Positions 25,668-42,157 of a stretch of 64,000 bases of DNA are shown here, one piece after another. Source of the DNA: Mucilaginibacter saanensis. GTDB lineage: Bacteria; Bacteroidota; Bacteroidia; Sphingobacteriales; Sphingobacteriaceae. The notes beneath the pieces are model-generated. The model made no database searches. It was not told the origin of the DNA and was given only the letters and a program-made list of their open reading frames with translations. Numbering within the stretch: the first letter of the stretch is position 1; the number at the start of each line of letters is the position of its first letter. Location of the stretch: positions 62,001-126,000 of the forward strand of contig NZ_JACHBZ010000003.1 in the NCBI RefSeq assembly GCF_014200575.1. Direction: 5' to 3'. The position numbers were made by a program, and so were the translations under genes.

Positions 25668-25750
25668 TTGCTTTTTTTGGTGATGGTGTTTATTGCCGGT
25701 ACTGGCTTTTCTTTTCAGCGGGGTATACTTTGCAGAAAGCCAAAATTGGT

Positions 25751-25798
25751 ATACGAACTTATAAGATAATTTATCAATCGGCATCCTGTAGCATCCTG
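25751..25798 (-). promoter_or_regulatory. PUL1 promoter A: tandem CAGGATGC repeat plus -7 box (GH28 operon)
   Basis: Read on the minus strand, CAGGATGC-TA-CAGGATGC occupies 25798-25781. About 20 bp downstream is TAAGTTCGTAT (25761-25751), close to the Bacteroidota -7 consensus TAnnTTTG. The tandem copies are exactly one helical turn apart. The same layout appears upstream of three other PUL1 units. The GH28 start codon is about 84 nt further on. Confidence 0.75.
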
Positions 25799-25802
25799 CA
25801 AT

Positions 25803-25838
25803 ATAAGTATAGCGACACAGGATAGTCGCTATACTTAT
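25803..25838 (-). terminator. Terminator after the PUL1 SusC-SusD pair
   Basis: ATAAGTATAGCGAC (25803-25816) pairs perfectly with GTCGCTATACTTAT (25825-25838) around an 8-nt loop. It follows the SusD stop codon and precedes promoter A, separating the transporter unit from the GH28 operon. Confidence 0.8.
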
Positions 25839-25873
25839 GATAATCATTTTACTAAATAAGCTTTATTCTTTGG

Positions 25874-27397
25874 TTAATAACCCGGATTTTGCGTGTACAG
25901 TCCCGGAGCTGCATCCAGTTGTGTTTGCGGCACTGGGTATATCACATAATTTGCTACTACCGGTTTAATGCTCTTCTGAGCATCTTCCTTAGCAATCCAG
26001 GCGTTCATGATCGTGATCAGGTCGCCACTCCTTTGCAAATCAAACCAACGCGAACCCTCGTCAGCGAACTCCCTGCGGCGCTCGTCAAACAATTGCGGTA
26101 GTGTTACACCTGTTACTGATGGTAGTCCGGCCCTTGTTCTTACCTGGTTAACAATGGCATCCACATCGCTTTGTGAGCCGCCTGTTGCGCCGTGCAAAAT
26201 ACATTCAGCTTTCAGCATTAACACATCGGTATACCTGATGGCAATAAAGTTTATCCCCCAGTCAAACCTGCTTGCTGCAGGAATTTTGGTGATATCAAGC
26301 CATTTTTTAAAAAATGGACGATTTTCTGTACTTCCGGCATTGGTATAACCGGCAGAATTGATACTAAAGGCTTTACGCACATCGGTAGCATCATAGCTGT
26401 TAGCCAAATCATTTGATACCGGGATAATCTCTAAACTACCGTTTGATTTGGTATCCTTGATATATAAAAAGTAGGTGTTAGGAGCAAGTGTCCAAGGGAA
26501 TGAGGCGCCATAAAGGTCACTGCTGCCGCTTATGCCACTGGTATACATGACATCAAATACGGCCTCTTTATTCGTGGTAGGGCTTTGGTTAGTGTATGAA
26601 AATACGCTGGTATAACTTGGATCAAAAGCAAACAGACCGCTGGTAATTACGTCCTGTAATAAAGGTAACGCCAGGTTCCATTCATTTGAACCTGTTCCGG
26701 GCCCTTCTATGCCATAGTTTGGTGCCGATTTAGCCATATAAACCTGGGCCAGTAAGGCTTCGGCTGCATATTTGGAGGCACGGCCTACATCAACTCCGGT
26801 ATATGTAGCCGGTAAATTAGCTATAGCCGATTGCAAATCTGCAATGATGAGCTTGTAAACATCAGCCACCGGGCTACGGCCAATAGTAGCAGCTTCCGGA
26901 GCCGTTACCGGGTGATCAATAACAGGCACCTTGCCATAATACCTAACCAGGTCAAAATAATAAAACGCACGTAGAAACTTCGCTTCGGCCTGTAACCTGG
27001 TAGCCAGAGTGGCCGAACCGATGTAACTGCCGTTTTTAGTTACCTGATCAAGCAAGGTATTGGCCCTGAAAATACCGTTAAAATCGGTACCCCAAGCCTC
27101 AGTTACGTAGGCGTTTGCAGCCAGTGATGGCGAGAAATCATTTACCGGGTCCCAATCACGAACGGTAACGGAAACACCGTATATGTTGTCTGAACGAATT
27201 TCAGACATGTTAGCCAATCGTACCGGGTAGTTATGCAGATCGGCATAAATAGCGTTTGAGGCCTGCAGAAAATCACTCGGTGAATGGTAAAAAGTAGCTG
27301 TGGTAGAGGATGAAATAGGCACCTGGTTTAAATCCTTGTTACAGGACGACATTGCTAAAACAGCTGATATGGTTGATAGAAAAAATATCTTTTTCAT
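25874..27397 (-). CDS. SusD-family outer-membrane glycan-binding lipoprotein (PUL1)
   Basis: A surface lipoprotein that captures oligosaccharides and acts as the lid of its SusC partner. The lipobox ends at Cys19 (LAMSSC). The N-terminal SusD-like domain includes DLNQVPISSSTTATFYHS. The helical tetratrico-peptide-like core contains AEAKFLRAFYYFDLVRYYGK, a hallmark of the family, and the C-terminus has DERRREFADEGSRWFDLQRSG. At 507 aa it is full length. It starts 19 nt downstream of SusC and shares promoter B. Confidence 0.95.
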   Translation of the reverse strand: MKKIFFLSTISAVLAMSSCNKDLNQVPISSSTTATFYHSPSDFLQASNAIYADLHNYPVRLANMSEIRSDNIYGVSVTVRDWDPVNDFSPSLAANAYVTEAWGTDFNGIFRANTLLDQVTKNGSYIGSATLATRLQAEAKFLRAFYYFDLVRYYGKVPVIDHPVTAPEAATIGRSPVADVYKLIIADLQSAIANLPATYTGVDVGRASKYAAEALLAQVYMAKSAPNYGIEGPGTGSNEWNLALPLLQDVITSGLFAFDPSYTSVFSYTNQSPTTNKEAVFDVMYTSGISGSSDLYGASFPWTLAPNTYFLYIKDTKSNGSLEIIPVSNDLANSYDATDVRKAFSINSAGYTNAGSTENRPFFKKWLDITKIPAASRFDWGINFIAIRYTDVLMLKAECILHGATGGSQSDVDAIVNQVRTRAGLPSVTGVTLPQLFDERRREFADEGSRWFDLQRSGDLITIMNAWIAKEDAQKSIKPVVANYVIYPVPQTQLDAAPGLYTQNPGY

Positions 27398-27416
27398 TTT
27401 GCTAATGTTGAAATAA

Positions 27417-30400
27417 TTAAAAAGTAACGTTTATCCCGAAAATCAGTGATTTAGCCAATGGCAAACCACCATAGTCACCAGCTTCAGGATAATTACTATC
27501 AGAGCTGATAGCGGTATTTTGAGCTTCCGGGTTGAAACCTCCATAATATTTGTCATGACCGAAGAAATTTTCGGCGGTAACGTAAATACGCGCCGCACCT
27601 AAAACCTTTGTCTTGAAAATATTTTTAAGATCATAACCTAAAGTGATATCTCTAACCCTAACATAATCTGACGAGTACAACCAGTCGGTATTGGCTACAA
27701 ATCCAAAGGTTGAATAGGCCTTGCTTACGCGTCCAGCGCCTTGGTTATCGGGAGATCTCCAGCGATTATCATAAAATGCAGGTGCATTATCAGTAAAGCC
27801 TTGACCTGTACGGGTAATAGCCCGACCTAACAGGGAATAAATTGATCCCCCGTTTTGACCCTGAACTAAAACACTTAGATCAAAACCCTTCCAACGTACC
27901 GTGTTAGTAATACCCCAGGTATAAGAAGGATTTGGGTGCCCCACAATTTGTTTATCAGCCTCGGTAATAACACCATCGCCATTAAGATCCTGATATTTAG
28001 GATCACCAACTGTTTCACCGGTACCGTAGGTGGCCGCGTGGTTGTTAATATCGGCCTGGGTAAGGAAACCTATCTGCTTTACTACATAAATACTATTTAA
28101 CGGCTGACCTACCCGCAAAATGGCATCAGAAACATCAAATGAATTTGGAATGATGATTTGCTGCTGGTTACCATACAGACTAACAATCTTATTGGAATAA
28201 TGGCTGATATTGATAGAAGTACTCCACTGAAATTTACCCACCATGTTACGGCTGGTTAATTCCAATTCCTGACCAATATTACGTACCGAACCGGCGTTTC
28301 GCAGTTGACTGCTAAAACCAGTTGATTGCAGGATAGGCACGTTAAGTAATAAATCGGTATTTAATTTATTGTAATAGTCAAATGAACCTGTTAAACGGTT
28401 ACTAAACAATCCAAAATCAAAACCAAAATCATAGGTCTGTGATTTTTCCCATTTAATATCCGGGTTTGGTAAATTGCTTGGAGCCTGACCAATTGCCAAT
28501 GCCTGCGGCGAGCCTAAAACGTATCCGTAAGAACCTATTTGTGATATACTTCCGTAATCGCCAATGCTGTTATTGCCATTTACACCGTAGCTTGCGCGTA
28601 ATTTCAGATCGCTTACTACAGGTACACTCTTCATAAAGCTTTCCTGAATAACACGCCAGCCTAAGGATGCTGAAGGGAATATGCCGTATTTTGTGTTAAC
28701 GCCAAATCGGGAAGAACCATCCTCACGTAAGCTGGCCGACAATAAATATTTATCTTTATAGCCATATTGCACACGGCTAAAGTATGATACCAGGACACTT
28801 TTAGTACCAGTAGTATTACCGGTAACAGTGGCCGCCGCATTTAAAGTTTGAATAACACTGCTGGTATATCCTCCTACTGATGACAGGGTTGACTGATCTA
28901 ACCGATCAGTATTGTAGGATTGACCTACCAATACATTCAGGCTATGTACAGAATTAAATGTAGTGTTGTACGTAAGTGTGTTTTCATTAACAAACGTTTG
29001 TCTTTTAAATGTACTGTATGAACCCGATGTGTTGGCAGTAAGATTGGCATTGGTAGCCGCATTGAAAGTTCTGGAAGCCAATGTACCTGAAATAGTATAC
29101 GGGGTATAGCTATTAGATGCATTGTCCACATTATCAAGGTTTAATGAACTGCGTAGCGTTAAGCCTTTGATAATTTCATATTCGGCAAATATGCTACCGA
29201 GTGTGCGGTATTTTTTAGTTTGACCTACTTTGTTTTCCAGTTTAGCAATCGGGCTGTTTGCAGAGTTACCCCAGGTATACTGCCCGTTTTTAAACGCGTT
29301 TGGATATAAACCAACTGTATCTTCCTGTATTGGACTATAGCTGATTGCCTGATGAAAAATATTGTCTTTTCCTTCTACCCCGGGATCCTGTGTAATGGAA
29401 TAGGTAGGTGCTATATTTAAACCTAATTTTAAGTTCTTAGCTGCATGTACCTCTACGTTGGCGCGCGCAGAGTAAGCTTTATATCCCAGCCCTTTTACAA
29501 AACCATCCTGGTTAGCGTAATTACCTGAAATAAAATAGTTTACAAACTCATTACCGCCGCTGGCGCTAAGGGCCTGATTTTGCATGGCACCTTTCTGTTC
29601 AATGGCTTTTTCCCAGTCAACGTATTGTAATCCTGGGTGACCTGGCATAGCCCATCTTGGATCAAGCATGTAAGCCGAGCTAAAAGCACCGCCATTAAGC
29701 GACATTCGTTTTGCAACATCATCACTGGCTGTTGCGCCTGATGCTCCAAATTTAAGTACATAAGCCGCATTGATCATTTCCGTTGCGCGGTCTATCCATT
29801 GGTCGCCGTTAAGCATAGGCAGATATTTGCTGGCAGCGTTATACCCATAATAAGTATTGTAAGTAATTTTGGCCTTACCTGATTTGCCCTTCTTGGTGGT
29901 AATTAAAACAACACCATTTGAAGCTCTTGATCCATAAATAGCGGCCGCGGCTGCATCTTTTAAAACCTGGATATCTTCAATATCATTCGGGTTAATATTG
30001 TCAAGTGGGTTGCCTGATCCGAAGCTGCCGCCGGTACCTATGGGAGAAACCGATAAAGGAAAACCATCAATTACATACAGTGGCTCATTACCGGCGCTTA
30101 TGGAGCCGCTGCCACGTACGTTAACGCTGAACGCCTTACCGGGTACACCAGTGGTTTGCTTTACACTAACACCTGCCATCTGGCCTACAAGTGCCTGATC
30201 AACACGGGTTATGGCGCGTTCATCAAGATTATCGGCTTTAAATGTAGCTACGGCTCCGGTAACATTGGCCCGTTTTTGAGCTCCGTAACCGATAACCACT
30301 ACTTCATTTAACTGCGATTCGGCTTCTGATAGGCTAACATTGATAACGTTGTTGGAACCAACGGTAACTTCTTTAACATCAAATCCGACTGATTTAAATA

Positions 30401-30632
30401 TTAATACCTGCCCGGCCGAAGCTTTAATAGTGTACTTCCCGTTTACATCGGCAGTTGTACCTGATTTTGTACCTTTTAACTGCACAGAAACGGCGGGAAC
30501 CGGTTGATGTTTACTGTCAGTAATAGTACCTGTGATACTGAGTTGCTGTGCAAAAGCGCTATAGATGTTTGTTGCGTTAAAAAAAAGCAACAACAATAGC
30601 ATTTTACAAGAATGAATAAAAATTCTTTTCAT
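27417..30632 (-). CDS. SusC-family TonB-dependent oligosaccharide transporter (PUL1)
   Basis: A 22-strand outer-membrane barrel that imports oligosaccharides using TonB energy. Order of parts: signal peptide (about 1-28), carboxypeptidase-regulatory-like domain (LSITGTITDSKHQPVPAVSV), TonB-box region (LNEVVVIGYGAQKRANVTGA), plug with NPNDIEDIQVLKDAAAAAIY, then the barrel ending in a terminal Phe (FGINVTF). At 1071 aa it is full length. It is paired with SusD downstream and driven by promoter B. Confidence 0.96.
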   Translation of the reverse strand: MKRIFIHSCKMLLLLLFFNATNIYSAFAQQLSITGTITDSKHQPVPAVSVQLKGTKSGTTADVNGKYTIKASAGQVLIFKSVGFDVKEVTVGSNNVINVSLSEAESQLNEVVVIGYGAQKRANVTGAVATFKADNLDERAITRVDQALVGQMAGVSVKQTTGVPGKAFSVNVRGSGSISAGNEPLYVIDGFPLSVSPIGTGGSFGSGNPLDNINPNDIEDIQVLKDAAAAAIYGSRASNGVVLITTKKGKSGKAKITYNTYYGYNAASKYLPMLNGDQWIDRATEMINAAYVLKFGASGATASDDVAKRMSLNGGAFSSAYMLDPRWAMPGHPGLQYVDWEKAIEQKGAMQNQALSASGGNEFVNYFISGNYANQDGFVKGLGYKAYSARANVEVHAAKNLKLGLNIAPTYSITQDPGVEGKDNIFHQAISYSPIQEDTVGLYPNAFKNGQYTWGNSANSPIAKLENKVGQTKKYRTLGSIFAEYEIIKGLTLRSSLNLDNVDNASNSYTPYTISGTLASRTFNAATNANLTANTSGSYSTFKRQTFVNENTLTYNTTFNSVHSLNVLVGQSYNTDRLDQSTLSSVGGYTSSVIQTLNAAATVTGNTTGTKSVLVSYFSRVQYGYKDKYLLSASLREDGSSRFGVNTKYGIFPSASLGWRVIQESFMKSVPVVSDLKLRASYGVNGNNSIGDYGSISQIGSYGYVLGSPQALAIGQAPSNLPNPDIKWEKSQTYDFGFDFGLFSNRLTGSFDYYNKLNTDLLLNVPILQSTGFSSQLRNAGSVRNIGQELELTSRNMVGKFQWSTSINISHYSNKIVSLYGNQQQIIIPNSFDVSDAILRVGQPLNSIYVVKQIGFLTQADINNHAATYGTGETVGDPKYQDLNGDGVITEADKQIVGHPNPSYTWGITNTVRWKGFDLSVLVQGQNGGSIYSLLGRAITRTGQGFTDNAPAFYDNRWRSPDNQGAGRVSKAYSTFGFVANTDWLYSSDYVRVRDITLGYDLKNIFKTKVLGAARIYVTAENFFGHDKYYGGFNPEAQNTAISSDSNYPEAGDYGGLPLAKSLIFGINVTF

Positions 30633-30686
30633 AAAATTGTTTTTTGGGGTTTAACTGTTTGGTGCAGTTGGGGTTTGTAATTGTAT

Positions 30687-30734
30687 ATACGAACATAAAA
30701 GTTAAAATTAAAAAGACCGTCCTGTAGCATCCTG
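30687..30734 (-). promoter_or_regulatory. PUL1 promoter B: tandem repeat plus -7 box (SusC-SusD)
   Basis: On the minus strand CAGGATGC-TA-CAGGACGG covers 30734-30717 and TATGTTCGTAT covers 30697-30687, again 20 bp apart. It matches promoter A at nearly every repeat position and in the -7 box. The SusC ATG is 55 nt beyond. Confidence 0.78.
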
Positions 30735-30756
30735 CTCTGTGAGAATACGGCAACAA

Positions 30757-30783
30757 AAAAGGCGATCAATTTGATCGCCTTTT
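30757..30783 (-). terminator. Terminator after the GH106 gene
   Basis: AAAAGGCGATC (30757-30767) pairs with GATCGCCTTTT (30773-30783) around a 5-nt loop. It follows the GH106 stop codon at 30807 and precedes promoter B, ending the acetylesterase-CE4-PL22-GH106 unit. Confidence 0.88.
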
Positions 30784-30806
30784 ACATTATAAAAACTTAA
30801 TAATAA

Positions 30807-33662
30807 CTACCTTACATGCAAATAACTAACCGGATTAAGGGTTACCGGCCCCACCAAACCAGATGCTTTAGGATCCCATTTTATGGCTGTAAAAAGTCCA
30901 TCAGCCCCTTTGGAGCCCGGGCTATGAGATTGCAAATTGGTGTTATAGAATATCCTGTAAGGAATGTTCTTCTTATCCATATCAATAATACGGTTCACCA
31001 TCAGGTTGGCTACTTTTATCTGTAATTGATTAACCGCTTTTAACTTTGCCGATGGTATGATAACCACGTATTGGGGACCTAAAAGGGTGGCCAACTTTTG
31101 GCCATTGAGATAAACCTCGGCATTTTCATAAACCTTACCCAGGTTAAGCTGCCAGGCTATCACATTTTGTACCGGCTTTTTAAAATTGATGGAATAGGTG
31201 CCTGTTCCGGAAAAGGCCTTAAATTCATCACCCAACTCAGTCCATGATTTAAGTTGATCAATTTTTACCGGCTGTGGCAAGGTTGGGCCTCCCTCGGTAA
31301 AGCTAAGTGTCCAAATACCGGTTATAGCAACAGGCTTACCCGCGAGCTGATAAACCGGATAGTTTGCTATATTAACTTTTGAAGGCAGGGTTTGTAAAAT
31401 GCAGCTTTGCCCGGGTTGCAGCTGTAAGTACACGGCTGTTTGGTCTTTACTTAACCTCTTGCTTTTTGCCAGGCCGTAAGTTTTAGTCATCGGATCAAAT
31501 ACCACTACTGAGGTTGCATTGACTGACAAATTTACCCATCCATCAACCGCTTTATCGCCCTTGTTTGCTATAAAATAGCTATTGCCATTTTGGTAGGTAC
31601 GGCGTACAAATTGTAAACCAGCATCAGTCATAGGTTCCCGGTTTATGCCTGCGCCATCCAGTAATGATGAAATATCATCCGCAATTAAAAAACGTCCGTG
31701 GCCTATAGCAGCTGTTTTAACTCCATCGTTACCGGTTTTAAAATCCAATCCAGCCAGTAGGTCTTTAAATGTTTTTTCGCGTTCGCTCAGATGAGCATAT
31801 CCCGGTACATCTGAAGGCAGTTTCTTATACACCACTACCGTTGCGCCGGCCTTCGCCATAGCTATCAACTTATTAAATGTTTCCAGCGGAATGTATTTAC
31901 AATCAGGCAGCAGGATGGTTTTGTAGTTAATGCCACCGGTTGTAATAGCAGCACCTTTAGTTTCTAATCCAAGTATTTGCTTATCAGATATAAAGTCAAA
32001 AGTATAACCCTTTTGCAGCATTTCTTCGGTTGAGGATTCAAAGCCTGTACCCTTAAAATCTGGTTTCATGGCATCATAATGTTTAAGCAAACCGTTATGT
32101 CCCATCTCAGAAAAACTATCAAATAGCGGGTAATAAACCAATACATCGTTGTCGGGCTTACCTTGTTGCAAAAACGACTGGCAATTAGTTATGTATTGAT
32201 TAAGCGTTGAAAAATCATTCCAAAATGGATTGGTTTGATTAAAATGTACAGCAGCATAAAACAGCCAGCCTGGCCACTGTGCATCTTTTGGCGAATAACT
32301 AATACCATGATAAAATATATGGTTTACGCCGCCAATAAAATATTTATCAATGGCTTGTTTAACGTTCCCTAATGACGACAAAAAGTGATCATTAAGCCAG
32401 GTTGCCGACTCAGATGATGCCAGCGGCTTGCCCATAACATGCGCGGCAGAAGTGGCAAATTTAAACCTTAGGATATCCTCCCCTTCGGTTTCGGGAATAT
32501 CTATAGCAGCGTACAGATCCAATATATTTGAAGGGGAACCGTGAGATTGGTTACGGATCAAAGCGCCTTTGGTTTTGGCCCAATCATGCCACGGTTTGGT
32601 AAAGTTGTCCAGCAACAGATCTGAAATTGTTTGCCGGTAATCGCACAAGATTCTGCTGTTACTTTCCTTATCATCGTTACCAAACAAAGCCGGTAAATGA
32701 TCCTGCAGATTATAACCGCGGCGTTTACTAAACTCTTCAAAAAACTGAGGTGTAAAATTTGATTGTCCGCGAGCATCATCCACCTCGTATGAGTCATTAA
32801 AATAGGCTCTTATTGCGCTTACATCCTGTCCTTTAAATGCCTGGTCAAATTTGTCAAGGTAATGAGCCAGGGCCGGTTTCGAGAAATGATCAATCACATA
32901 ACCCTCACCACCAGGGGCCGCACGCTCTACCATTTTGCCGTGCCATCCCTGAAAAAGGGCATAAAGTTTCCAATCGCCAGCAGGTGCAGTCCAGTTTAGC
33001 TGTCCTTCGGCATCAACCTTATCGGTCAAATTTAAAGCTTGCCCCTTGCCGTCATAAGCCATTAAAACGGTTAATGGAATGCGTTTTTCAAATCTTACCT
33101 GGTCAAGCGCCATTAGCTGCAGATTTTTATTACTGCTGATAGGTTCAACCAGATCGGTGATCTTTGGCGCCACCCCATCTGCTCTAACTAAGGGTTGTTG
33201 TATAAATACTACATGCTCGCTGAGTTTTTTGCCGGTCTTAAGATCGTAGTTTTTCCAGAACAGTTCTTTACTGGCGTCCTCATTGGTTACCCACGGCCCG
33301 CCAAAAGGCCAACCAGTAGCGTTGGCCAAATCAATACCCATGTTTAAACGCTTAGCCTCCTGCAGCGTATATTTAAGCATATCAACCCATTGCGGCGATA
33401 AATACTGTATAAATTCGCTTTCGTGGCCCTTAACCCCGTAAATGGGCGTTATCTCAAGTCCACCCAAACCCGCATTCCTGTAACTTTCCATATTCCAGGT
33501 AAGGTCTTTTTTGTTTACAGCGCTTCCTTCCCACCACCACCTGGCCCAGGGCCTGGTTTGTTTAGTAGTTGCCGGCCATCCAATTTGTGCCGAGGCTGCC
33601 TGCGAACCTATTAAAAGGGCAAATACGGCTGCAATTTTTATATTATTTCTAATAAATGACAT
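30807..33662 (-). CDS. GH106 alpha-L-rhamnosidase
   Basis: A large secreted exo-alpha-L-rhamnosidase acting on pectic rhamnose. The signal peptide ends near residue 25. Family blocks are TRPWARWWWEGSAVNKKDLT, GLGGLEITPIYGVKG, IDLANATGWPFGGPWV and the Glu-bearing FNDSYEVDDARGQ, followed by a long C-terminal beta-sandwich (ENAEVYLNGQKLA). At 951 aa it is family length. It is the last gene of a four-gene unit. GH106 members act on rhamnogalacturonan I or II, which fits the neighbours. Confidence 0.94.
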   Translation of the reverse strand: MSFIRNNIKIAAVFALLIGSQAASAQIGWPATTKQTRPWARWWWEGSAVNKKDLTWNMESYRNAGLGGLEITPIYGVKGHESEFIQYLSPQWVDMLKYTLQEAKRLNMGIDLANATGWPFGGPWVTNEDASKELFWKNYDLKTGKKLSEHVVFIQQPLVRADGVAPKITDLVEPISSNKNLQLMALDQVRFEKRIPLTVLMAYDGKGQALNLTDKVDAEGQLNWTAPAGDWKLYALFQGWHGKMVERAAPGGEGYVIDHFSKPALAHYLDKFDQAFKGQDVSAIRAYFNDSYEVDDARGQSNFTPQFFEEFSKRRGYNLQDHLPALFGNDDKESNSRILCDYRQTISDLLLDNFTKPWHDWAKTKGALIRNQSHGSPSNILDLYAAIDIPETEGEDILRFKFATSAAHVMGKPLASSESATWLNDHFLSSLGNVKQAIDKYFIGGVNHIFYHGISYSPKDAQWPGWLFYAAVHFNQTNPFWNDFSTLNQYITNCQSFLQQGKPDNDVLVYYPLFDSFSEMGHNGLLKHYDAMKPDFKGTGFESSTEEMLQKGYTFDFISDKQILGLETKGAAITTGGINYKTILLPDCKYIPLETFNKLIAMAKAGATVVVYKKLPSDVPGYAHLSEREKTFKDLLAGLDFKTGNDGVKTAAIGHGRFLIADDISSLLDGAGINREPMTDAGLQFVRRTYQNGNSYFIANKGDKAVDGWVNLSVNATSVVVFDPMTKTYGLAKSKRLSKDQTAVYLQLQPGQSCILQTLPSKVNIANYPVYQLAGKPVAITGIWTLSFTEGGPTLPQPVKIDQLKSWTELGDEFKAFSGTGTYSINFKKPVQNVIAWQLNLGKVYENAEVYLNGQKLATLLGPQYVVIIPSAKLKAVNQLQIKVANLMVNRIIDMDKKNIPYRIFYNTNLQSHSPGSKGADGLFTAIKWDPKASGLVGPVTLNPVSYLHVR

Positions 33663-33677
33663 CTGCTTTTATAGTTA

Positions 33678-34904
33678 TTAATGTTTGGCTATTTCTACCG
33701 CGTAAACGCCCTCATTCCCCTCAAAATTGGCCCTGAATATTATCCATTTTTCATCCGGTGAGAAGTGTACGTTTGGCTCCAGGTGATAGTTATGATTTTT
33801 CATATTTACCAGTTTTTCTGATTTGAAATGATCACCGGCTGGTTTAAACAAATATATCCACATACCATCCGGGGCTTTGGCTACCTGTCCCGAGTTTCCT
33901 CCGTCGCCTGCAAATGTTTGCTCATCTTTAGTTACGTTAAAATGGATTGACCATTCGTTCCGGTCCATTTGGTAAACACGGTCTTCCTTACCTGTTTTCA
34001 TATTAATTCCGGCCAGAAAAAATGTTTGCCCTTTGGGTTTCTGCAAATCAAACCACTCCGTATTTCCCGTTGGCGAAAAAAACTCGTGCCCTGCAATTTC
34101 ATTTACCATGGTACGCTTATGAAGTAGTTTTTTTTCGCCTGTTTTTATATTGATGTTCCATATACGATCAACTTTTTCCCACGGCCCCTCATGGCAGTAT
34201 GACAAATTATCAGGATCAGCAGGCGAAAAAAGCAGGTGATTTGTCCATTCGTTTTCCTGGTGTATTTGTTTTAATACCTTGCGGTTAACATCAAGCACAT
34301 ATAAGGTATGTTGTATATGTGCATCATATATACGGTTAAAAAAATCATGTTTCTCGGGATATTTAGCAAGTATTTCCCGCTCCTGCTCACCTGTAGCTTT
34401 TACACAGGCCATAAAAGTACCATCGGCATTTACCGTACCCACACGCCCTTTAAAATCGGGAGCAAAAGCATAAATAAACCTGGTTTTATGAGTATTAACA
34501 TTTACGGCAAATATACTATCGCCGCTTTGATAAAATGCTTCCCTGGTTTTGGCGCAAACCATTTCACCAGACACCTTCTGTCTATCGGTTAACTGCTCCG
34601 TTTTCAGCGTTTTTAAATTAACGGTAAATAACTGCATCCCATTGGATGTTTTACCATAAAATACCATCAGATCACCTTCGTTCTTTTTTTGAGGAACAAA
34701 CGGCGTATTGTTAAAATAAAAGCTTCCGTTGTCACTTTCCCTGTTTACCAGCCGAATTATTTTGTGGCCGGTAGTTTTATCAATCCATTGGGCGGGCATA
34801 GGTTTTGTACCCCCTGTTTCCATAACGTCCTGTGCTTTTACGGTAAAAAAGCATACCTGTAAAAAGGCAAAAGCCGCTAAAGTCAGTTTTTGGGTTGTTT
34901 TCAT
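33678..34904 (-). CDS. PL22-like oligogalacturonate lyase
   Basis: A seven-bladed beta-propeller that cleaves galacturonate disaccharides or short oligomers to the 5-keto-4-deoxyuronate precursor. A signal peptide (about 1-24) is present, so it acts in the periplasm, unlike the cytoplasmic Ogl of enterobacteria. Diagnostic segments are NEWTNHLLFSPADPDNLSYC with His223, CHEGPWEKVDRIW with His238, and later HFNVTKDEQTFAGDGG, containing probable metal ligands. At 408 aa it is near the usual 390. It lies between the CE4 and GH106 genes. Confidence 0.88.
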   Translation of the reverse strand: MKTTQKLTLAAFAFLQVCFFTVKAQDVMETGGTKPMPAQWIDKTTGHKIIRLVNRESDNGSFYFNNTPFVPQKKNEGDLMVFYGKTSNGMQLFTVNLKTLKTEQLTDRQKVSGEMVCAKTREAFYQSGDSIFAVNVNTHKTRFIYAFAPDFKGRVGTVNADGTFMACVKATGEQEREILAKYPEKHDFFNRIYDAHIQHTLYVLDVNRKVLKQIHQENEWTNHLLFSPADPDNLSYCHEGPWEKVDRIWNINIKTGEKKLLHKRTMVNEIAGHEFFSPTGNTEWFDLQKPKGQTFFLAGINMKTGKEDRVYQMDRNEWSIHFNVTKDEQTFAGDGGNSGQVAKAPDGMWIYLFKPAGDHFKSEKLVNMKNHNYHLEPNVHFSPDEKWIIFRANFEGNEGVYAVEIAKH

Positions 34905-34915
34905 TTATTTAGGTT

Positions 34916-35686
34916 TTAATAGGTTGGTTCGGCATTTATATATTTATCCAAATCTCGCATAGCGATTACGGTATAATGGTTTTCTTTAAGGTAGTTCAAA
35001 TATCCTTTAAGTACCTCAACTGAGGTATTTACCCATGGATGCGCATCATCAGGCACACCATGGATAGTTAATACAGCTATTTTGCCATTTTTTGCTTCCT
35101 GCAATAATTCAAAACCTTGTTTGGTGTTTTCTGTATGCGTGGTAAAACCCGGAATAAGGTATGGGCTATCTGCAGCTGGATCATACGGCCTGTCCCATCC
35201 TGCCCTGGCATAGCGATAACCCTTGTTTTTTAATACCGTTATAGCCCGTTTGCTGGTATCATAGCCGGGATATGCAAAACTTACCGGCTTGGGAATATGG
35301 TATTCGCGGCACTTTTTTTCAATATAGTCCAATTCGGCTTCAAAACGGGTGCTATCCATTTTGTTAACATGCGTATGATGCCAGGTATGATTACCTATTT
35401 CGAACCCCATCTGGCTTAGCTTCGCTATCTGCTCCCAAGTCATATAAAGCGATTTATCCTGGAACGACGGTTTGCCAAACTCGCACACAAAAAACGTGGC
35501 ACCAAAGCCGTACTGTTTCAGCAAAGTGGCCACTGTGGTATAATGGCTCAAAACAGCATCATCAAAAGTTAAAACCACCAGCTTATCCGGTACGTTTTTT
35601 TTCAATTGCTGTGCATGTGCCCCGTGGCAACAGCTTAAAAGCAACAATATCACTAATGGAATTTCTTTCATGATATTTTTCATCAA
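34916..35686 (-). CDS. CE4-like polysaccharide deacetylase (NodB domain)
   Basis: A metal-dependent deacetylase. The signal peptide ends near residue 26. Motif 1 is LTFDDA (Asp42-Asp43), and motif 2 is NHTWHHTHV with metal ligands His100 and His104. Motif 3 is seen in FAYPGYD, and LTIHGVPDDAHPW near residue 220 gives the late His. At 256 aa it is a single NodB domain. The ATG overlaps the stop of the upstream acetylesterase by 4 nt. In this operon it likely removes acetyl groups from a pectin side chain. Chitin- or peptidoglycan-type substrates are less likely from context. Confidence 0.88.
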   Translation of the reverse strand: MMKNIMKEIPLVILLLLSCCHGAHAQQLKKNVPDKLVVLTFDDAVLSHYTTVATLLKQYGFGATFFVCEFGKPSFQDKSLYMTWEQIAKLSQMGFEIGNHTWHHTHVNKMDSTRFEAELDYIEKKCREYHIPKPVSFAYPGYDTSKRAITVLKNKGYRYARAGWDRPYDPAADSPYLIPGFTTHTENTKQGFELLQEAKNGKIAVLTIHGVPDDAHPWVNTSVEVLKGYLNYLKENHYTVIAMRDLDKYINAEPTY

Positions 35687-37038
35687 TTACCGTCAGGTTT
35701 AATAGCACTATTGCTTGGACTGGCGGGCAAACTGAACTTGTCTGCCGGGTCGGGATGCGCGGGGTCAAAAGATGGCGCATCTATAATATACTGTTCCAAA
35801 TTCAGATGATTACTGCGGATGCCCTGTATAATGCATTTGGCAATTTCGTAAGCACCATAATTATTAAAATGGGTGTTGTCGGTTAAATCTTTAGGCTGAT
35901 TGGGAAACGAATTTGCGGGGTACCACACAAAAGCTTTTTTTGAAGCTTCATTGCCCAATGCTTCGTAAAATTTTGCCGTCATCATGTTAAGATCAATCAG
36001 GGGGACATTTAGCTCCCGTGCAACTTTGCGCGCTGCGTTGGGATAATCACCTAATGTATTTACCACTTTATTGCTATCATTAAAAGCGCGGCGACTGGTG
36101 GAAGTAACAATAACAGGAATGGCACTTTTATCACGGATCTTGCTGATAAATAATTTCAGCCGTTCGGTATAGGAGTTATAAGCGCCATCCTGCGGGCCTT
36201 TTTCCTTCTGATCGTTATGTCCAAACTCTATAAAAAGATAATCTCCCGGCTTAATCACACTCAACACCTTATCTAAACGATGGCTCCCTAAAAAGCTACC
36301 CAGCGTAAGGCCAGATTCAGCGTGATCTGCAATGCTAACTCCCGGTTTAAAGAACCGGGTAATCATTTGCCCCCAGGAACACCAGGGTTCATCGTCCTGA
36401 TCAACTACGGTTGAGTTACCTGCCAAATAAACGGTTATCTGATCGTCTACACGTTCAATCTCCATGGCGTCAACACATGGTTTGGTATCATTAAATTCAA
36501 TACTCAATTTATTGTCCCAATCATATTTTCCAAACTCACGGGGTTTCAGGGTTACTTTTCCCCCTGTGCTGATCTCCGGCTTACGGATATTGACCATAAA
36601 GCTTACCGTTTTAACCGCACCATTATAGGTTTTAAGTTTCTCCACCATTAGCCTGCGCGACTCGGCACGTACAGTAATGGCGCTGCTGCCCTTGATATCG
36701 CCTAATGTGAGTGTTACTTTATAATTACCTTCGGGTACATTTACCGAAAAATAAAAAGGCTTGTCGCTGGTCACATAATCGCCCGTAAGCGCTTTATGGG
36801 TATTGCGGACTATAGCATTGACCTTTGAACCAAAATCAAACCCATAACCTTTATTTTCATTAAATATATCATCAGGCGTTACCTTCTGATAGCCTTTAGC
36901 CGCTTTGCCCACGCCAAAATCAAACCTGAAGCTGGTTTTGATCTCTTGTGCTAAAAGCGTTGCTGGCGAAGTAACCAGCAGCAGAAAACAAAAAAATGGC
37001 AATAAGAGCTTATACGTCAGCTTGATCATTTTGTACAA
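35683..37038 (-). CDS. Rhamnogalacturonan acetylesterase with N-terminal beta-sandwich (CE12)
   Basis: A two-domain secreted esterase. Residues about 34-200 form a galactose-binding-like beta-sandwich, starting FRFDFGVGKAAKGYQKVTPD, possibly a carbohydrate-binding part. Residues about 202-430 are an SGNH domain: LAGNSTVVD (Ser209), EFGHNDQKE, and DNTHFNNYGA near the C-terminus. At 451 aa it is about 180 residues longer than the two simple CE12 esterases in the window. It is first in a four-gene operon under promoter C and overlaps the CE4 gene by 4 nt. A second Met at residue 4 is an alternative start. Confidence 0.92.
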   Translation of the reverse strand: MYKMIKLTYKLLLPFFCFLLLVTSPATLLAQEIKTSFRFDFGVGKAAKGYQKVTPDDIFNENKGYGFDFGSKVNAIVRNTHKALTGDYVTSDKPFYFSVNVPEGNYKVTLTLGDIKGSSAITVRAESRRLMVEKLKTYNGAVKTVSFMVNIRKPEISTGGKVTLKPREFGKYDWDNKLSIEFNDTKPCVDAMEIERVDDQITVYLAGNSTVVDQDDEPWCSWGQMITRFFKPGVSIADHAESGLTLGSFLGSHRLDKVLSVIKPGDYLFIEFGHNDQKEKGPQDGAYNSYTERLKLFISKIRDKSAIPVIVTSTSRRAFNDSNKVVNTLGDYPNAARKVARELNVPLIDLNMMTAKFYEALGNEASKKAFVWYPANSFPNQPKDLTDNTHFNNYGAYEIAKCIIQGIRSNHLNLEQYIIDAPSFDPAHPDPADKFSLPASPSNSAIKPDGN

Positions 37039-37087
37039 TTTTATCCAGGTTATTTCGGTGCCCGCAATGGGTAGTGGTTTATAATAA

Positions 37088-37134
37088 TTTAAAGTTATAT
37101 GATGTTTATACCAATGGCGTCCTGCACCATCCTG
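37088..37134 (-). promoter_or_regulatory. PUL1 promoter C: tandem repeat plus -7 box (acetylesterase operon)
   Basis: On the minus strand CAGGATGG-TG-CAGGACGC covers 37134-37117 and TAACTTTAAAT covers 37098-37088. Repeat spacing is 10 bp and the gap to the -7 box is 19 bp. It lies in the 140-bp spacer between the DUF4450 stop and the acetylesterase start. Confidence 0.72.
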
Positions 37135-37178
37135 ATTAAGAGATCTGTTATTGTAACAAATTCATCACTTTTGTTTTT

Positions 37179-40100
37179 TTATTGGCGCATCAGGGTAACT
37201 CCCATCAAACCTATTACCACATCGTTTGCTAATGTTTTTAATTGTATGCTCTTTAATTGTTTTTTACCATCAAGCGGTAAATCAAGAACAGTGCCCGCAC
37301 CACCGTCAATACCTTTGTTGGTATAGCCTTTGATAGTGATGTACTGTTGATAATCAGTGGTTATCTCGCCGGTTTTAAAATATACCCGCAACGGCTTTGG
37401 AGCACCTGTTTTAAAGGCAAAACCGTCGTAATCATCATCCTGTTCTATAGGCCACCAATTTTCAGGATTTTTAATATTTAAAATGGCATTTGTACCGTCA
37501 TTGTAACTAATTGTTACCACGGCATTTGTAATGCGCGATTGCATAGGATTGGTTGAACCCGCCATAAGCAAATAAGCATGCACCGCGTTGCCTGTTAACG
37601 GAATGTTTACTTCATTCGGGTAGTTATCCCAGCGTGATGTGAACAGGATATTTTTACTATCATCAACCGGAGTGATAAAAGGTATTTGATTGGGCAACTT
37701 AAAAACCCCATTGTTTTTGCTGGCTGCTTTTTTTAAACCGCTGTTGTCAATATTTGCTGTAATAAGTGGATATGCCCAATTGCCTATCCCCTGCCAGGGT
37801 AATTGAAGAGTAGGTGATTTTGGTCGCGGGGAAAGGTATTTATTTAAGAAAATTTGCTTAAGCTTATCATTAAAGTAGGCAGATAGATTAACCGTTTCAG
37901 GTTTCCAATCTGGCGACTTATTAATATTCCAATTTATCAATGTGGTATCCAAGATATTTCGCCCGTCTGATAAACGGATGTGATTACTGCCTGGTACCAG
38001 GTTAAAAGCAGGAATAGTTACATGAGCAGATTTGCCTTTGGGTTTAATAATAATATCGGAATGATAGGCCGTTTTTAGTTCAGGATTGACGGTGACAGTT
38101 ATATACCTCTCTGAACCGTTGTTTATTACTTTAAAGCCAAGCTCATTACTATTTTGTAGTGTATCGGCAATTATCGTAAAGGATTTGGTGATTTTTATGT
38201 TTACAGGCTGCCACCAGTTAAAGCTACCTTGCTTTAACTGCACGAAAAAGGTATGATTACCTGTTGAACTGCTCAGTATTGCCATTATGTTTTTCCCTTT
38301 AATAATCGCGTGTGCTAATATCTGCTGCGGATCATTAATATTGATAACCTGCGCCTTATCAAACCTATGGGTTAGCGTACTATTGATGCCATAGCTGGTT
38401 TCTGCACATTCAGTTTGCGGTTTTACCTCGCCCCACGTTATCTTTATTTTCCAGATACTTTGTTTACCAGCTATTATTTGTAAAACAGGGTTACCAACGG
38501 CACTGGGAACTGCCGTCCATTTTGCTGGGCGGCCATTTACGGTTACCGATTGAACGGAAACCGACCTTGCGAGTATCTGGAATTTAAGTACCGGGACTTT
38601 ATTAAAGGCTGGTTTAATGGTATAAGTATCCGTCTGCCCAACATGTTTATAGTCAAATTTAATGTCAGGCACTGATAATGAAGCATAATTCCATTGTTGC
38701 GGCAGCCCAGGTTTAATAGTTAGCGTGTCCTTTAACAGATCGGGCTTGATGCCGAATAATCCCTCCACCAATGAGCGGGCTGCCATCCCTATTGGATCGG
38801 CAAAATCACGATACAGTTCACCTCTGTGAACATCATAAAACGAGATCTGTTGAAAATTACCAGGACTGGTACCCAGATACATACTTTCCAATATCGCACT
38901 TTTCCATAACGTAAAGGCATTTTCCTGCTGATTGCCCTGCCAGTATGCCAAAGCCATATGCAGGTTTTCGGCCATTACCACGTTATTTAACGACCAATCA
39001 TAAGGCAGCCAATTGGTAGTTGACAGTAAATAATTATTACCTGATAAGCCTTTGGCTATAACCGGAATATGTGGTATCTCGGTATCCACATAACGTAAAG
39101 CCTGATAGGCTTGAAAGGTATCCGGTATTTCAGAATCAATAGCATGATAAATTGTCCACAAACCTGCAGATGGATGTAATAAGCGCAGCCCCAGCAAATC
39201 CTGGTACTCTGCATAATTGCCTGTTCCTCGTATCCATAATGTTTTATTAATGGCTGTCACTATTTTATCAGCCTCCTGCCGGTAAGGTTCAGGATCTTCA
39301 CCAATAAGCTGTGCCAGATACACCGCAGCTTTATTTGCCCGGTAATTATAAGCCGATGTATGCGTTACCCCGCCACCGCTATACTGCAAAGCATCACTTG
39401 CCCAAATGGCACAATAAGCATCGTATAAACCGTCGCCGTCTGCATCAAAATTTCGTTTTTCCCAGGCCAGGTGCCGCTGAATGAGCGGCCACATTTTTTT
39501 AACTTCATTTAGGTCCCCCGTCCACTTGAAATGATTAAGCAATGCATCTATATACACCAAATTCATATCGTAATGATGAGGACGAATATCGCCGCCGGGA
39601 TTACGGCTGATATAACCACTGCTAAACATGGCTGTACCCAGTTTTTCAAGCTGACGGGCTATGTGCAGAGCTGTATCTGCTATAACTGGCCCGGATGTTG
39701 GTTCTGTAATTTGTGATAGGGCGTAGCTACTAAAATGCGACCGGGCACGGTCATGCCAGCCTAAAGGATCGGCAACATAAGGCCCGCGCCATGCCGGGAG
39801 GCGCATACGCCAGGCTACCGCACCATGCAGATACGAAGGGCTTTCCCAAATACCATCGGCGGCAACACTTAGCGCACCACCAAGTGTATTGATATAAGGA
39901 TCGGGGGTACTGACAACAACCCGTGAGGCTAATTTTTTTATGTAGGCTGCGGCCTCATTAAACAGCAATTCGGGGTTGCTATGCTCAAAAGGCTTTCCGT
40001 TCTGGATTGCCCAAAATATATTTTCATCTTTATTACCATTTACCAAACCGGCTATCGCCGGTTTATCGACTGCATTAGAGTTCAGCATTATTAATGGCGA

Positions 40101-40904
40101 ACTTTGCTCATTTGCGCTAACCAGATGAACATTAGCGCAGGCTGGGTAAATACCATATAACACATTTTTGGCTACGACTTCTTTTTTTTGCTCATCTGAC
40201 TTAACCTGACCATTTTCATAACGTCCGGCTTCACTTAAACTTTTACCGTTAAAGTTCAAAGTAAAATGGCCTTCAGTAATTTTGAAATCATTTCCCTTGC
40301 AGTAATCAGGCTGCATTTCAAAGCCTGATTCAGGATCGGCACCTATATCACCATCTCTTGAAAACTTTTTGCCCGTGGCGCCGCCAAATGCCCAAAATAG
40401 CCTTACCTGTTTACCGGTATTTGAAAACCTCGCCTTAATTAGCATATTTTCGGCAGATGAACCTGCCAGTACTTCTATATCCAGTACACCATTTTTACCT
40501 AAAAGCGCATCTTTAATTTTATAGATCATGCTACCGGGCCGATAGCGGGCTTTAATAAATCCGGCATTAATAAGCCATTTACTTTGGTCGCCGTTGATCA
40601 ACCCCATTTTAAGATTCCCTCCCATTCCTGGCAGGTACAGAGCAAACTCAGGCAGGTCACCAGCCTCAACCCTGAAAGCGGTATTGGTGCCGTAAAGCGC
40701 CCTGTTAAAACGATGCCTGCCATTAACGATCACAAAATCCCGTCCGTCAGGATGATAGCGCAGTTCCCGTTTAACATGGTGCCATAAACGGCTATCTGAT
40801 TGCGCATAGCCTTTTTTAGCAAGCAATTGCAAAGCTCCGGAAATTAAACAAACCCATAATACAAAGCCGGAAAAAGCTTTGATTTTAAAAGCTACTCGAT
40901 CCAT
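37179..40904 (-). CDS. DUF4450 family protein, putative (alpha/alpha)6 glycosidase
   Basis: A very large (1241 aa) secreted protein of unproven function. The N-terminal part (residues about 40-330) matches what I recall of DUF4450: HVKRELRYHPDGRDFVIVNG, RALYGTNTAFRVEAGDLPEF. The middle part (about 330-800) looks like a six-hairpin barrel with WRMRLPAWRGPYVADPLGWH, AIWASDALQYSGGGVTHTSA and DWSLNNVVMAENLHMALAYW. The rest is beta-rich. The Asp/Glu residues of the barrel are catalytic candidates. It is a single-gene unit under promoter D, transcribed divergently from a GntR regulator. An exo-hydrolase for a pectin backbone or side chain is the best guess. Confidence 0.7.
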   Translation of the reverse strand: MDRVAFKIKAFSGFVLWVCLISGALQLLAKKGYAQSDSRLWHHVKRELRYHPDGRDFVIVNGRHRFNRALYGTNTAFRVEAGDLPEFALYLPGMGGNLKMGLINGDQSKWLINAGFIKARYRPGSMIYKIKDALLGKNGVLDIEVLAGSSAENMLIKARFSNTGKQVRLFWAFGGATGKKFSRDGDIGADPESGFEMQPDYCKGNDFKITEGHFTLNFNGKSLSEAGRYENGQVKSDEQKKEVVAKNVLYGIYPACANVHLVSANEQSSPLIMLNSNAVDKPAIAGLVNGNKDENIFWAIQNGKPFEHSNPELLFNEAAAYIKKLASRVVVSTPDPYINTLGGALSVAADGIWESPSYLHGAVAWRMRLPAWRGPYVADPLGWHDRARSHFSSYALSQITEPTSGPVIADTALHIARQLEKLGTAMFSSGYISRNPGGDIRPHHYDMNLVYIDALLNHFKWTGDLNEVKKMWPLIQRHLAWEKRNFDADGDGLYDAYCAIWASDALQYSGGGVTHTSAYNYRANKAAVYLAQLIGEDPEPYRQEADKIVTAINKTLWIRGTGNYAEYQDLLGLRLLHPSAGLWTIYHAIDSEIPDTFQAYQALRYVDTEIPHIPVIAKGLSGNNYLLSTTNWLPYDWSLNNVVMAENLHMALAYWQGNQQENAFTLWKSAILESMYLGTSPGNFQQISFYDVHRGELYRDFADPIGMAARSLVEGLFGIKPDLLKDTLTIKPGLPQQWNYASLSVPDIKFDYKHVGQTDTYTIKPAFNKVPVLKFQILARSVSVQSVTVNGRPAKWTAVPSAVGNPVLQIIAGKQSIWKIKITWGEVKPQTECAETSYGINSTLTHRFDKAQVININDPQQILAHAIIKGKNIMAILSSSTGNHTFFVQLKQGSFNWWQPVNIKITKSFTIIADTLQNSNELGFKVINNGSERYITVTVNPELKTAYHSDIIIKPKGKSAHVTIPAFNLVPGSNHIRLSDGRNILDTTLINWNINKSPDWKPETVNLSAYFNDKLKQIFLNKYLSPRPKSPTLQLPWQGIGNWAYPLITANIDNSGLKKAASKNNGVFKLPNQIPFITPVDDSKNILFTSRWDNYPNEVNIPLTGNAVHAYLLMAGSTNPMQSRITNAVVTISYNDGTNAILNIKNPENWWPIEQDDDYDGFAFKTGAPKPLRVYFKTGEITTDYQQYITIKGYTNKGIDGGAGTVLDLPLDGKKQLKSIQLKTLANDVVIGLMGVTLMRQ

Positions 40905-40997
40905 AAATAAATATCAAGAAAAGATTAACTGCGGTAATTGGCTAATTATCTGTATTATTTTCGACTGGTTTGTGTCTGAAAATAATACAGATGTGTT

Positions 40998-41045
40998 TTG
41001 TAAAATAAGCCCGTTTTTATTAAACAACCATCCTGTAGCGTCATG
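40998..41045 (-). promoter_or_regulatory. PUL1 promoter D: tandem repeat plus -7 box (DUF4450 gene)
   Basis: On the minus strand CATGACGC-TA-CAGGATGG covers 41045-41028, with one mismatch in the first copy, and TTATTTTACAA covers 41008-40998. It lies in the divergent region between the DUF4450 gene and a GntR regulator, 80 bp from the regulator's start codon. Confidence 0.65.
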
Positions 41046-41125: not shown

Positions 41126-42157
41126 ATGAAGTCTTCACGATTATTAGAATACATATATATTGATTACTATTCGTCTACACCAAAATATATACAGTTAGCT
41201 AACTCCATTATTAAAAGTGTGCGTGAGGGAAAGCTGCTTATTAACGAAACACTGCCGTCTATAAATGAATTAAATATACATTTTGAAATATCACGTGATA
41301 CTGCCGAAAAAGCATACAAACATTTAAAAGCAATTGGCCTGCTTGGTTCGGTACCGGGCAAAGGATATTACCTTAAAAATACAGAAGCGGGCCAGCAGTA
41401 TAAGGTATTTTTAATTTTTAACAAGTTAAGTACCCATAAAAAATTAGTATACGACGCTATTGTTGACGGACTTGGCCACGAGGCGGCCATTGACTTTTAT
41501 ATTTACAATAATGATTTTGAGTTTTTCAAAAAACTGCTTCAAAACAAAAGTGCGGATTATACGCATTATGTAATTCTCCCTCATTTTATGGATGGCGGCG
41601 AAAATGTACATGATATCATCAATACCCTGCCTAAAGAAAAACTGATTATACTTGACAAACTTGTGCCCGGCATCAAGGGAGATTTTGCGGCGGTATATGA
41701 AAACTTTGAAAAAGATATTTTTAAAGCACTGGAAGAAGCTGTACCGCAGCTTAGCAGGTATCATACGTTAAAAATCATTTTCCCTGAATACACTTATTTC
41801 CCCGGCGAAATTCTGAAAGGTTTTTTTAGTTTCTGTATTCAATATGCTTTTACCTATAAGGTAGTTCATGATATACAAAAAGAACCTATAAACGAGGGCG
41901 AGGTTTTTATTAATCTGATGGAAAATGACCTCGTAGTTTTAATTGAACGGATACTCGCCACCAAATTACAGATTGGTAATGATGTAGGCGTAATCTCCTA
42001 TAACGAAACACCACTAAAGAAAATAATTTTAAACGGCCTAACTACTATATCAACTGATTTTGAAAAGATGGGGCAAATGACCGCCCAAATTATAAAAGAT
42101 GGTAGTACGGGCCGATATGAAGTACCTTTTTACTTAACCCTCAGGTCATCATTGTAA
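41126..42157 (+). CDS. GntR-family regulator with LacI-type effector domain (AraR-like)
   Basis: A 343-aa regulator. Residues about 1-80 are a GntR winged helix (YIQLANSIIKSVREGKLL, LPSINELNIHFEISRDTAEK, LGSVPGKGYYL). Residues about 95-343 are a periplasmic-binding-protein-like sensor (YKVFLIFNKLSTHKKLVYDA, GVISYNETPLKKI). This combination is known from AraR of Bacillus, a sugar-responsive regulator. It diverges from the DUF4450 gene across promoter D, so it is the prime candidate to recognise the PUL1 repeat. It ends 20 nt from the stop of a convergent paralogue. Confidence 0.92.
   Translation: MKSSRLLEYIYIDYYSSTPKYIQLANSIIKSVREGKLLINETLPSINELNIHFEISRDTAEKAYKHLKAIGLLGSVPGKGYYLKNTEAGQQYKVFLIFNKLSTHKKLVYDAIVDGLGHEAAIDFYIYNNDFEFFKKLLQNKSADYTHYVILPHFMDGGENVHDIINTLPKEKLIILDKLVPGIKGDFAAVYENFEKDIFKALEEAVPQLSRYHTLKIIFPEYTYFPGEILKGFFSFCIQYAFTYKVVHDIQKEPINEGEVFINLMENDLVVLIERILATKLQIGNDVGVISYNETPLKKIILNGLTTISTDFEKMGQMTAQIIKDGSTGRYEVPFYLTLRSSL

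Follow-up and report, generated by a model that had tools for sequence, protein, structure and literature searches.

Which regulator controls four minus-strand promoters that share a tandem 10-bp element, and how far does its reach extend? These questions are raised by a polysaccharide utilization locus (PUL1) of Mucilaginibacter saanensis, lying within the 64,000-nucleotide stretch of DNA analysed here (the window). The original prediction described the element, CAGGAYGS-TR-CAGGAYGS, as confined to PUL1; for the regulon beyond the window, we used the broadened half-site CAKGAYRS. We find that the element is a real regulatory signature of the L-rhamnose/rhamnogalacturonan regulon in the genus and beyond, and consider it probable, at roughly 0.75, that it serves as operator for an activator of the GntR type bearing a LacI-type sugar sensor; this activator is predicted from sequence to be the protein encoded at 41126 and its orthologues.

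The 18-mer occurs without mismatch at elements A, B and C and with one mismatch at D, all on the minus strand, so that the four claimed copies are indeed present (Table 1). Because the promoter-side edge of the element lies 19 nt before the -7-like box at A, B and C and 20 nt before it at D, the proposed regularity (a 10-bp period and 19–20 nt to the box) also stands. The strict pattern is absent elsewhere in the window at up to two mismatches, in line with the proposed absence from the fucose operon and PUL2; a fifth match, at 35185, carries three. In shuffled windows, matches at up to three mismatches averaged 0.27, and five or more occurred in 0/100 shuffles. A motif search of the whole genome (46 contigs, 6,242,960 bases) revealed no scatter of copies, A–D being the only ones at up to one mismatch, with three extra at two.

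In the genus survey of 149 Mucilaginibacter genomes, the pattern was found at one mismatch in 57 and the reversed pattern in none; one match (G074) was obtained for the reversed control in the exact-site scan and a few in the free-spacing scan. With half-sites left free, period 10 accounted for 47 of 150 among the matches listed, the other periods from 9 to 29 averaging 5.15 with a largest value of 13. Conservation at orthologous loci, a test set beforehand, held for B, C and D and failed for A, a point taken up below. Nine loci (L067–L075) encode a GntR protein of 92–93% identity, the L068 stretch being devoid of the PUL. Promoter C retains the element in 8/8 of the remaining loci, promoter B in 6/6 of those with susC in the stretch (it lies outside in L069 and L073), and rhaM is preceded by a D-like site with one mismatch (L067, L070) or two (L069, L073). 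Among named genomes, Niastella, Filimonas, Segetibacter, Pedobacter, a Cyclobacteriaceae metagenome-assembled genome and others possess the element. With copies throughout the genus, in other genera and before the unlinked rhaT operon of M. saanensis itself, the idea of a PUL1-specific element was rejected, as the same signature marks a rhamnose/rhamnogalacturonan regulon. Chance or a coding artefact was ruled out for the non-coding sites; only six GntR-lacking genomes had any matches (G007, G031, G047, G059, G100 and G128), and those read there lie inside open reading frames (ORFs).

The commonest home of the element is the rhaT promoter beside the GntR gene, which appears to be its ancestral home as well. 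In L076–L086 (GntR 70–86% identical), and likewise in many further loci, the GntR gene adjoins rhaT, rhaDA (encoding a bifunctional rhamnulose-1-phosphate aldolase/dehydrogenase), rhaI, rhaK and sometimes rhaM; the names were assigned by NCBIfam on L077, where the rhaI models are strong but under their curated cut-offs and rhaK matches weakly. The rhaT promoters in those loci mostly carry a CATGACAGTGCATGATAG-like site, the same element with T instead of G as the third letter. Our rhaT set comprised 58 de-duplicated promoters near a GntR gene (one row, L125, was fetched by motif, and loci of the Pedobacter type, in which rhaT precedes GntR, were judged only where the stretch reached the rhaT promoter). 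At up to two mismatches, the element is present in 44/47 promoters near a GntR with a [SC]RDT[AV]E[KR] recognition helix, in 1/3 of those with SRDTI[HQ]K and in 0/8 of those with SRN types; at two mismatches, the controls gave 4/58 (reversed upstream sequences) and 0/1160 (letter shuffles). L221 was scored as a miss and 44/47 kept; there, an exact site precedes an ORF that we interpret as a wrongly read N-terminal part of rhaT.

In 39/149 genus genomes no GntR was detected at E 1e-40, and 16 of these 39 keep rhaI. In this GntR-lacking, rhaI-bearing group, 0/14 readable rhaT genes have the element in the 300 bases upstream, even at three mismatches, and across all 16 genomes no non-coding site at up to two mismatches turns up in the 127,959 bases surrounding rhaI. 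The contrast between 44/47 and 0/14 is significant (Fisher p = 3e-11, or 1.6e-9 with 11 instead of 14, three of the rhaT genes, in L338, L339 and L340, standing behind another gene), as is the presence of an exact non-coding site in 50/110 genus genomes with GntR vs 0/39 without (Fisher p = 6e-9) and in 50/105 vs 0/16 of the rhaI-bearing ones (p = 2e-4), with the caveat that all these p values treat related genomes as independent. The 50 genomes are the 57 of the exact-site scan minus two GntR-lacking ones (coding), G081 (coding), G035 (at an ORF end) and G103, G111 and G127, which, themselves not read, share a sequence that is coding in L049; of the 50, 49 were read as non-coding and one (G098) was not read. 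The association of the element with the GntR gene among rhaT promoters makes the 41126 protein, named in the original prediction as an uncertain candidate, a likely one.

In the predicted regulator, a GntR winged helix is followed by a LacI-type sugar-sensor domain. Its N-terminus (residues 21–82) matches PF00392 at 38 bits (cut-off 27), and its C-terminus matches PF13377 at 24.6 bits, under the cut-off of 26.5. An AlphaFold2 model built from 40 sequences has a mean predicted local distance difference test score of 90.9, and a Foldseek search with it returned 480 matches at E ≤0.001, the best 50 of which are mainly LacI-family regulators (best E 4.3e-12). Solved GntR domains, including AraR and MocR members, match the N-terminus, the AraR DNA-binding domain 4egy being among 19 matches. 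By domain search and model, the architecture is that of the AraR subfamily, in which a GntR winged helix is joined to a LacI-type sensor; the aminotransferase-like C-terminal domain of the MocR subfamily is missing, and the DNA-binding domain is exclusively of the GntR type, not AraC, DeoR or LacI as in known L-rhamnose regulators. A second GntR-LacI-like gene (42178–43209), 37% identical to the 41126 gene product and converging on its gene, keeps its place in 8/9 of the related loci (L067, L069–L075).

How the element is placed bears on the mode of action. We collected 166 de-duplicated non-coding sites at up to one mismatch upstream of a same-direction gene. A TA..T[TC] box, whose columns played no part in picking the sites, follows at 19 nt in 117/166 and at 18–20 nt in 135/166, with at most 17 at any other single offset. 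If the TAnnTTTG box is taken as -12 to -5, following PMC9723704, the element extends from about -49 to -32, where the -33 box would otherwise lie. The lack of TTTG at -33 (0/135) is itself no evidence, since the element pattern fills that place. As at class-II-type sites, the distance to the core promoter is nearly fixed (135/166) and the element lies over the upstream box, in agreement with the activator-like position proposed originally. Among exact sites, 63 face only a same-direction gene start, 2 only an opposite one, 63 both and 4 neither, and 1 is coding. Longer arrays also exist, with four units in L141 and L125 and three in L277, L166 and a second L125 promoter. Opposed copy pairs about 40 bp apart were seen in L087 (5027–5088) and L158 (3206–3264); each L158 copy faces its own divergent gene, and the outer L087 copy faces no gene start.

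The same geometry speaks to the possibility that the GntR protein is a repressor which sits over the -33 region until rhamnose appears. Repression is the usual mode of GntR and LacI proteins, and a protein bound across the place of the -33 box could block RNA polymerase. Yet from a near-fixed distance to the -7 box (19 nt in 117/166) and a fixed direction (63 vs 2), contact with the polymerase is expected rather than a block, and promoters with the element in the -33 place would presumably be weak without help, so that we regard repression as unlikely.

A further line of evidence concerns the drift of the half-site together with the recognition helix. Three loci with SRDTI[HQ]K helices (L162–L164) carry CATAACAG-type half-sites. 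Non-coding tandems resembling NARGACAGTA-NRGGATAGTT (up to two mismatches) are found in 17/34 loci with SRN-, ARN- or SRA-type helices, i.e. in 16 of 23 chosen loci and 1 of 11 added ones; this pattern was drawn up after seeing loci that carry it, several of which are close relatives. The drifted tandems keep the 10-bp layout of the canonical element, and most of them have a -7-like box 18–20 nt further on. Other tandem repeats occur near GntR in L184, L185, L187 and L188, and when tandem repeats were tallied by period in 29 loci, most of which have other helix types, period 10 scored 15 vs 1–10 for periods 9 and 11–20, a result that is weak on its own because the excess is only mild. Paralogue loci whose neighbours, named by eye, are dihydrodipicolinate-synthase-like have no 10-bp tandem of their own before a -7-like box (0/6), and those with oxidase-like neighbours, also named by eye, show one doubtful 10-bp tandem among 12. 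The layout thus seems to persist even where, in part of the GntR family, the letters differ, which supports, without proving, the link between protein and element.

These observations also bear on whether some other, unlinked regulator of the AraC, hybrid two-component (HTCS), OmpR or DeoR type binds the element, the GntR gene being just a frequent neighbour. Direct repeats are usual among such regulators (a 10–11 bp period for DeoR, about 21 bp for AraC and HTCS; PMC3870299, PMC3878776), the window itself contains an AraC gene (9538) and an HTCS gene (53290), and many GntR loci lack the element. Against this, the element follows the GntR gene at rhaT promoters (44/47 vs 0/14), in some loci the half-site letters change along with the GntR recognition helix, and GntR is the recurring regulator in the gene lists read around rhaT. 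An unlinked regulator therefore appears improbable, and the originally suggested OmpR-type or other activator from outside the window has become less likely, given that among genomes with the rhamnose operon the element follows the GntR gene and a drifted half-site accompanies half of the loci with other helices. That the element is a core-promoter part read by an alternative sigma factor is highly improbable: its distance to the -7 box is fixed and extracytoplasmic function (ECF) sigma genes are among the downstream genes, but the box is an ordinary TAnnTTTG-like one and the element is an 18-bp two-unit repeat, with three or four units at some promoters, that follows GntR presence.

Several observations weigh against a GntR-type activator acting through this element. 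GntR-type proteins mostly repress. Close relatives push up the site counts, and the motif itself served to fetch some of the loci that supplied the 166 sites. An exact non-coding site is missing from 60/110 GntR-bearing genus genomes, in part because the E-value cut admits paralogues with other half-sites or pathways, and a non-coding site at up to one mismatch is found in only 63/159 GntR-fetched loci (49 exact; by set 18/20, 7/19, 38/80, 0/20 and 0/20, the final two sets consisting largely of paralogues with other helices). No drifted element was found in 17/34 loci (L171, L184–L188, L346, L311–L313, L320–L323, L325, L326 and L168). Before GH28, nothing resembles element A at up to three mismatches in 5/5 relatives (L067, L070, L071, L074 and L075). 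In M. saanensis itself, the GntR gene is unlinked to rhaT, whose site has two mismatches, and a few downstream genes in other genomes (O-antigen ligase, fasciclin) do not look rhamnolytic. Finally, GntR motifs are mostly palindromes, with a few direct repeats (PMC4494728).

The genes behind the 166 sites are consistent with a rhamnose-pectin regulon: rhaT accounts for 47, esterase homologues for 19, SusC homologues for 17, GH106-like genes for 7 and other genes for the rest, with 53 genes, including the window's own four, bearing no name in the tally. When 30 further downstream proteins were compared with Pfam, we found 8 rhamnosidase-type proteins (one weak), 1 PL4 rhamnogalacturonate lyase, 3 Pel9A-like proteins, 3 esterases, 2 GH43 and 1 GH2 proteins, 4 ECF sigma factors, 2 O-antigen-ligase-like proteins, 1 apiosidase-like, 1 fasciclin and 1 WbsX protein, and 3 without a family. 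The O-antigen-ligase-like genes (L122 and L290) lie outside the pectin theme. The element precedes ECF sigma-factor genes in L105, L114, L273 and L277 (and, by eye, in L278, L308 and L309), several of which adjoin SusC-type genes, making a cascade from the rhamnose regulator to an ECF sigma factor possible.

In M. saanensis, the rha operon lies on another contig (C19), with no GntR gene in the stretch read there, and its rhaT is preceded by CATGACAGACCATGACAG 19 nt before TAAATTAG. A related site with one mismatch lies before a susC on contig C7, near a 62% identical GntR, with no clear -7 box at 19 nt.

From these data we infer binding, head-to-tail assembly, effector and activation by the predicted regulator as follows. 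Rhamnolytic digestion would free L-rhamnose, and rhamnose or a derivative of it would bind the sensor domain. The CAKGAYRS half-site recurs in the same orientation after 10 bp, one helical turn, and this arrangement would let two subunits bind head to tail on the same DNA face. From the class-II position, the bound subunits could touch RNA polymerase, replacing the missing -33 contact, and transcription of the transporter, lyase, esterase, rhamnosidase and rhamnose-catabolic operons would start. The four window operons would be switched on together and the rhaT operon in trans; in some relatives, an ECF sigma factor behind the element would relay the signal.

More tentatively, as something close to an even bet, we propose a new class of activators: GntR-LacI proteins that, instead of forming a symmetric dimer, assemble head to tail on 10-bp repeats of up to three or four units, replace the -33 box and unite monosaccharide catabolism with polysaccharide uptake in a rhamnose-pectin regulon over several families, while the half-sites of paralogues drift with the helix. 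In the literature surveyed, mostly by listings, no GntR-type regulator of rhamnose/rhamnogalacturonan use in Bacteroidota is recognised; the rhamnose regulators named in PMC3870299 are of the AraC, DeoR and LacI types, and the parts available of PMC5507952 and PMC12125979 contain no regulator of this type. DeoR-family rhamnose regulators likewise control rhamnose genes through two imperfect direct repeats of 10–11 bp period, but have a DeoR DNA-binding domain, and the characterised one, from Rhizobium, represses, in contrast to the GntR-LacI architecture and activator-like distance seen here (PMC3870299). AraC-type RhaR/RhaS and the Bacteroides RhaR (BT3768) activate rhamnose genes from repeated sites, and the HTCS of rhamnogalacturonan PULs are similarly predicted to control PULs from repeated sites; these Bacteroides AraC/HTCS repeats have a period of about 21 bp, compared with 10 here, and their AraC-type DNA-binding domain is unlike GntR (PMC3870299, PMC3878776). 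Moreover, B. thetaiotaomicron uses separate regulators for monosaccharide and PUL genes, whereas here one would cover both (PMC3870299, PMC3878776). HTCS repeats average 21 bp according to PMC3878776, which also describes FucR (BT1272) and ManR (BT2103) of B. thetaiotaomicron; these are GntR-family sugar regulators from the same phylum, ManR even covering a SusC/SusD operon, but they serve other sugars.

AraR, a GntR-LacI chimera, and its subfamily share the two-domain architecture of GntR winged helix and LacI-type sensor (PMC4494728). As the conserved sites here are 10-bp direct repeats in an activator-like position, we did not file the element as an AraR-type operator. In B. subtilis, AraR acts on palindromes and represses, and the palindrome is taken to define the subfamily. 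MocR regulators use direct repeats (PMC5320631); members such as GabR and PdxR often recognise such repeats with their GntR winged helix, include several activators and form head-to-tail dimers, but they bear an aminotransferase-like sensor, and the parts available of the two sources carry no mention of a 10-bp tandem locked to the -7 box (PMC5320631, PMC4494728). In E. coli XylR, a LacI/GalR-type sugar sensor is joined to an activating DNA-binding domain, and its Vibrio homologue has direct-repeat sites resembling those of XylR, but that domain is AraC, not GntR (as cited in PMC12125979). If our interpretation is true, CAKGAYRS-TR-CAKGAYRS followed by 19 nt and TAnnTTTG would find much of the regulon in a genome, co-regulation would assign roles to genes without known function, the paralogue/half-site series would serve to study the recognition of direct repeats by a palindrome-type winged helix, and one could derive a promoter module for Bacteroidota that rhamnose induces. 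XylR sites lie near -35.

Table 1. Promoter elements and genes of the M. saanensis window (HTCS, AraC and other genes mentioned in the text not included).
Feature	Coordinates	Strand	Sequence	Remarks
Element A	25781..25798	-	CAGGATGC-TA-CAGGATGC	upstream of GH28 operon
-7-like box of A	25754..25761	-	TAAGTTCG	19 nt past element A
Element B	30717..30734	-	CAGGATGC-TA-CAGGACGG	upstream of susC-susD; orthologous promoter in L067, L070-L072, L074, L075
-7-like box of B	30690..30697	-	TATGTTCG	19 nt past element B
Element C	37117..37134	-	CAGGATGG-TG-CAGGACGC	upstream of GDSL esterase operon; orthologous promoter in L067, L069-L075
-7-like box of C	37090..37097	-	TAACTTTA	19 nt past element C
Element D	41028..41045	-	CATGACGC-TA-CAGGATGG	now upstream of DUF4450 gene
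-7-like box of D	41000..41007	-	TATTTTAC	20 nt past element D
GH28 protein	24255..25847	-		mechanical ORF; likely start near 25663
SusD-like protein	25874..27397	-		
SusC-like TonB-dependent receptor	27417..30632	-		
GH106 alpha-L-rhamnosidase	30807..33662	-		
GDSL esterase	35683..37038	-		first gene of operon C; homologues have the element at unlinked loci in other species
DUF4450 gene	37179..40904	-		first 14 codons like start of rhaM
Predicted regulator	41126..42157	+		GntR winged helix (residues 21-82) and LacI-type sugar-sensor domain

The original assignment of promoters to genes was right for B and C, which precede susC-susD and the esterase operon, and needs amending for A, which lies inside the longest GH28 ORF, and for D, whose promoter precedes rhaM in relatives. 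That longest ORF covers element A and its -7 box (25663–25847), so that automatic annotation could hide the promoter. The rhaM and DUF4450 genes are separate neighbours in L070; in the window, the DUF4450 gene seems to have acquired the rhaM promoter and start through a deletion, and element D is likely the ancestral rhaM promoter. The start of the DUF4450 ORF (40863–40904), MDRVAFKIKAFSGF, resembles that of rhaM in relatives and is followed by a signal-peptide-like stretch.

The cluster also encodes an oligogalacturonate-lyase-like protein and a polysaccharide deacetylase, and the gene content of the window reads as a set of the rhamnogalacturonan type. At 44952–45658, a frameshift or an error in sequencing appears to have broken up a GH43 gene, since a single GH43 profile is matched in successive stretches (positions 4–85 and 98–212) by two short ORFs that overlap.

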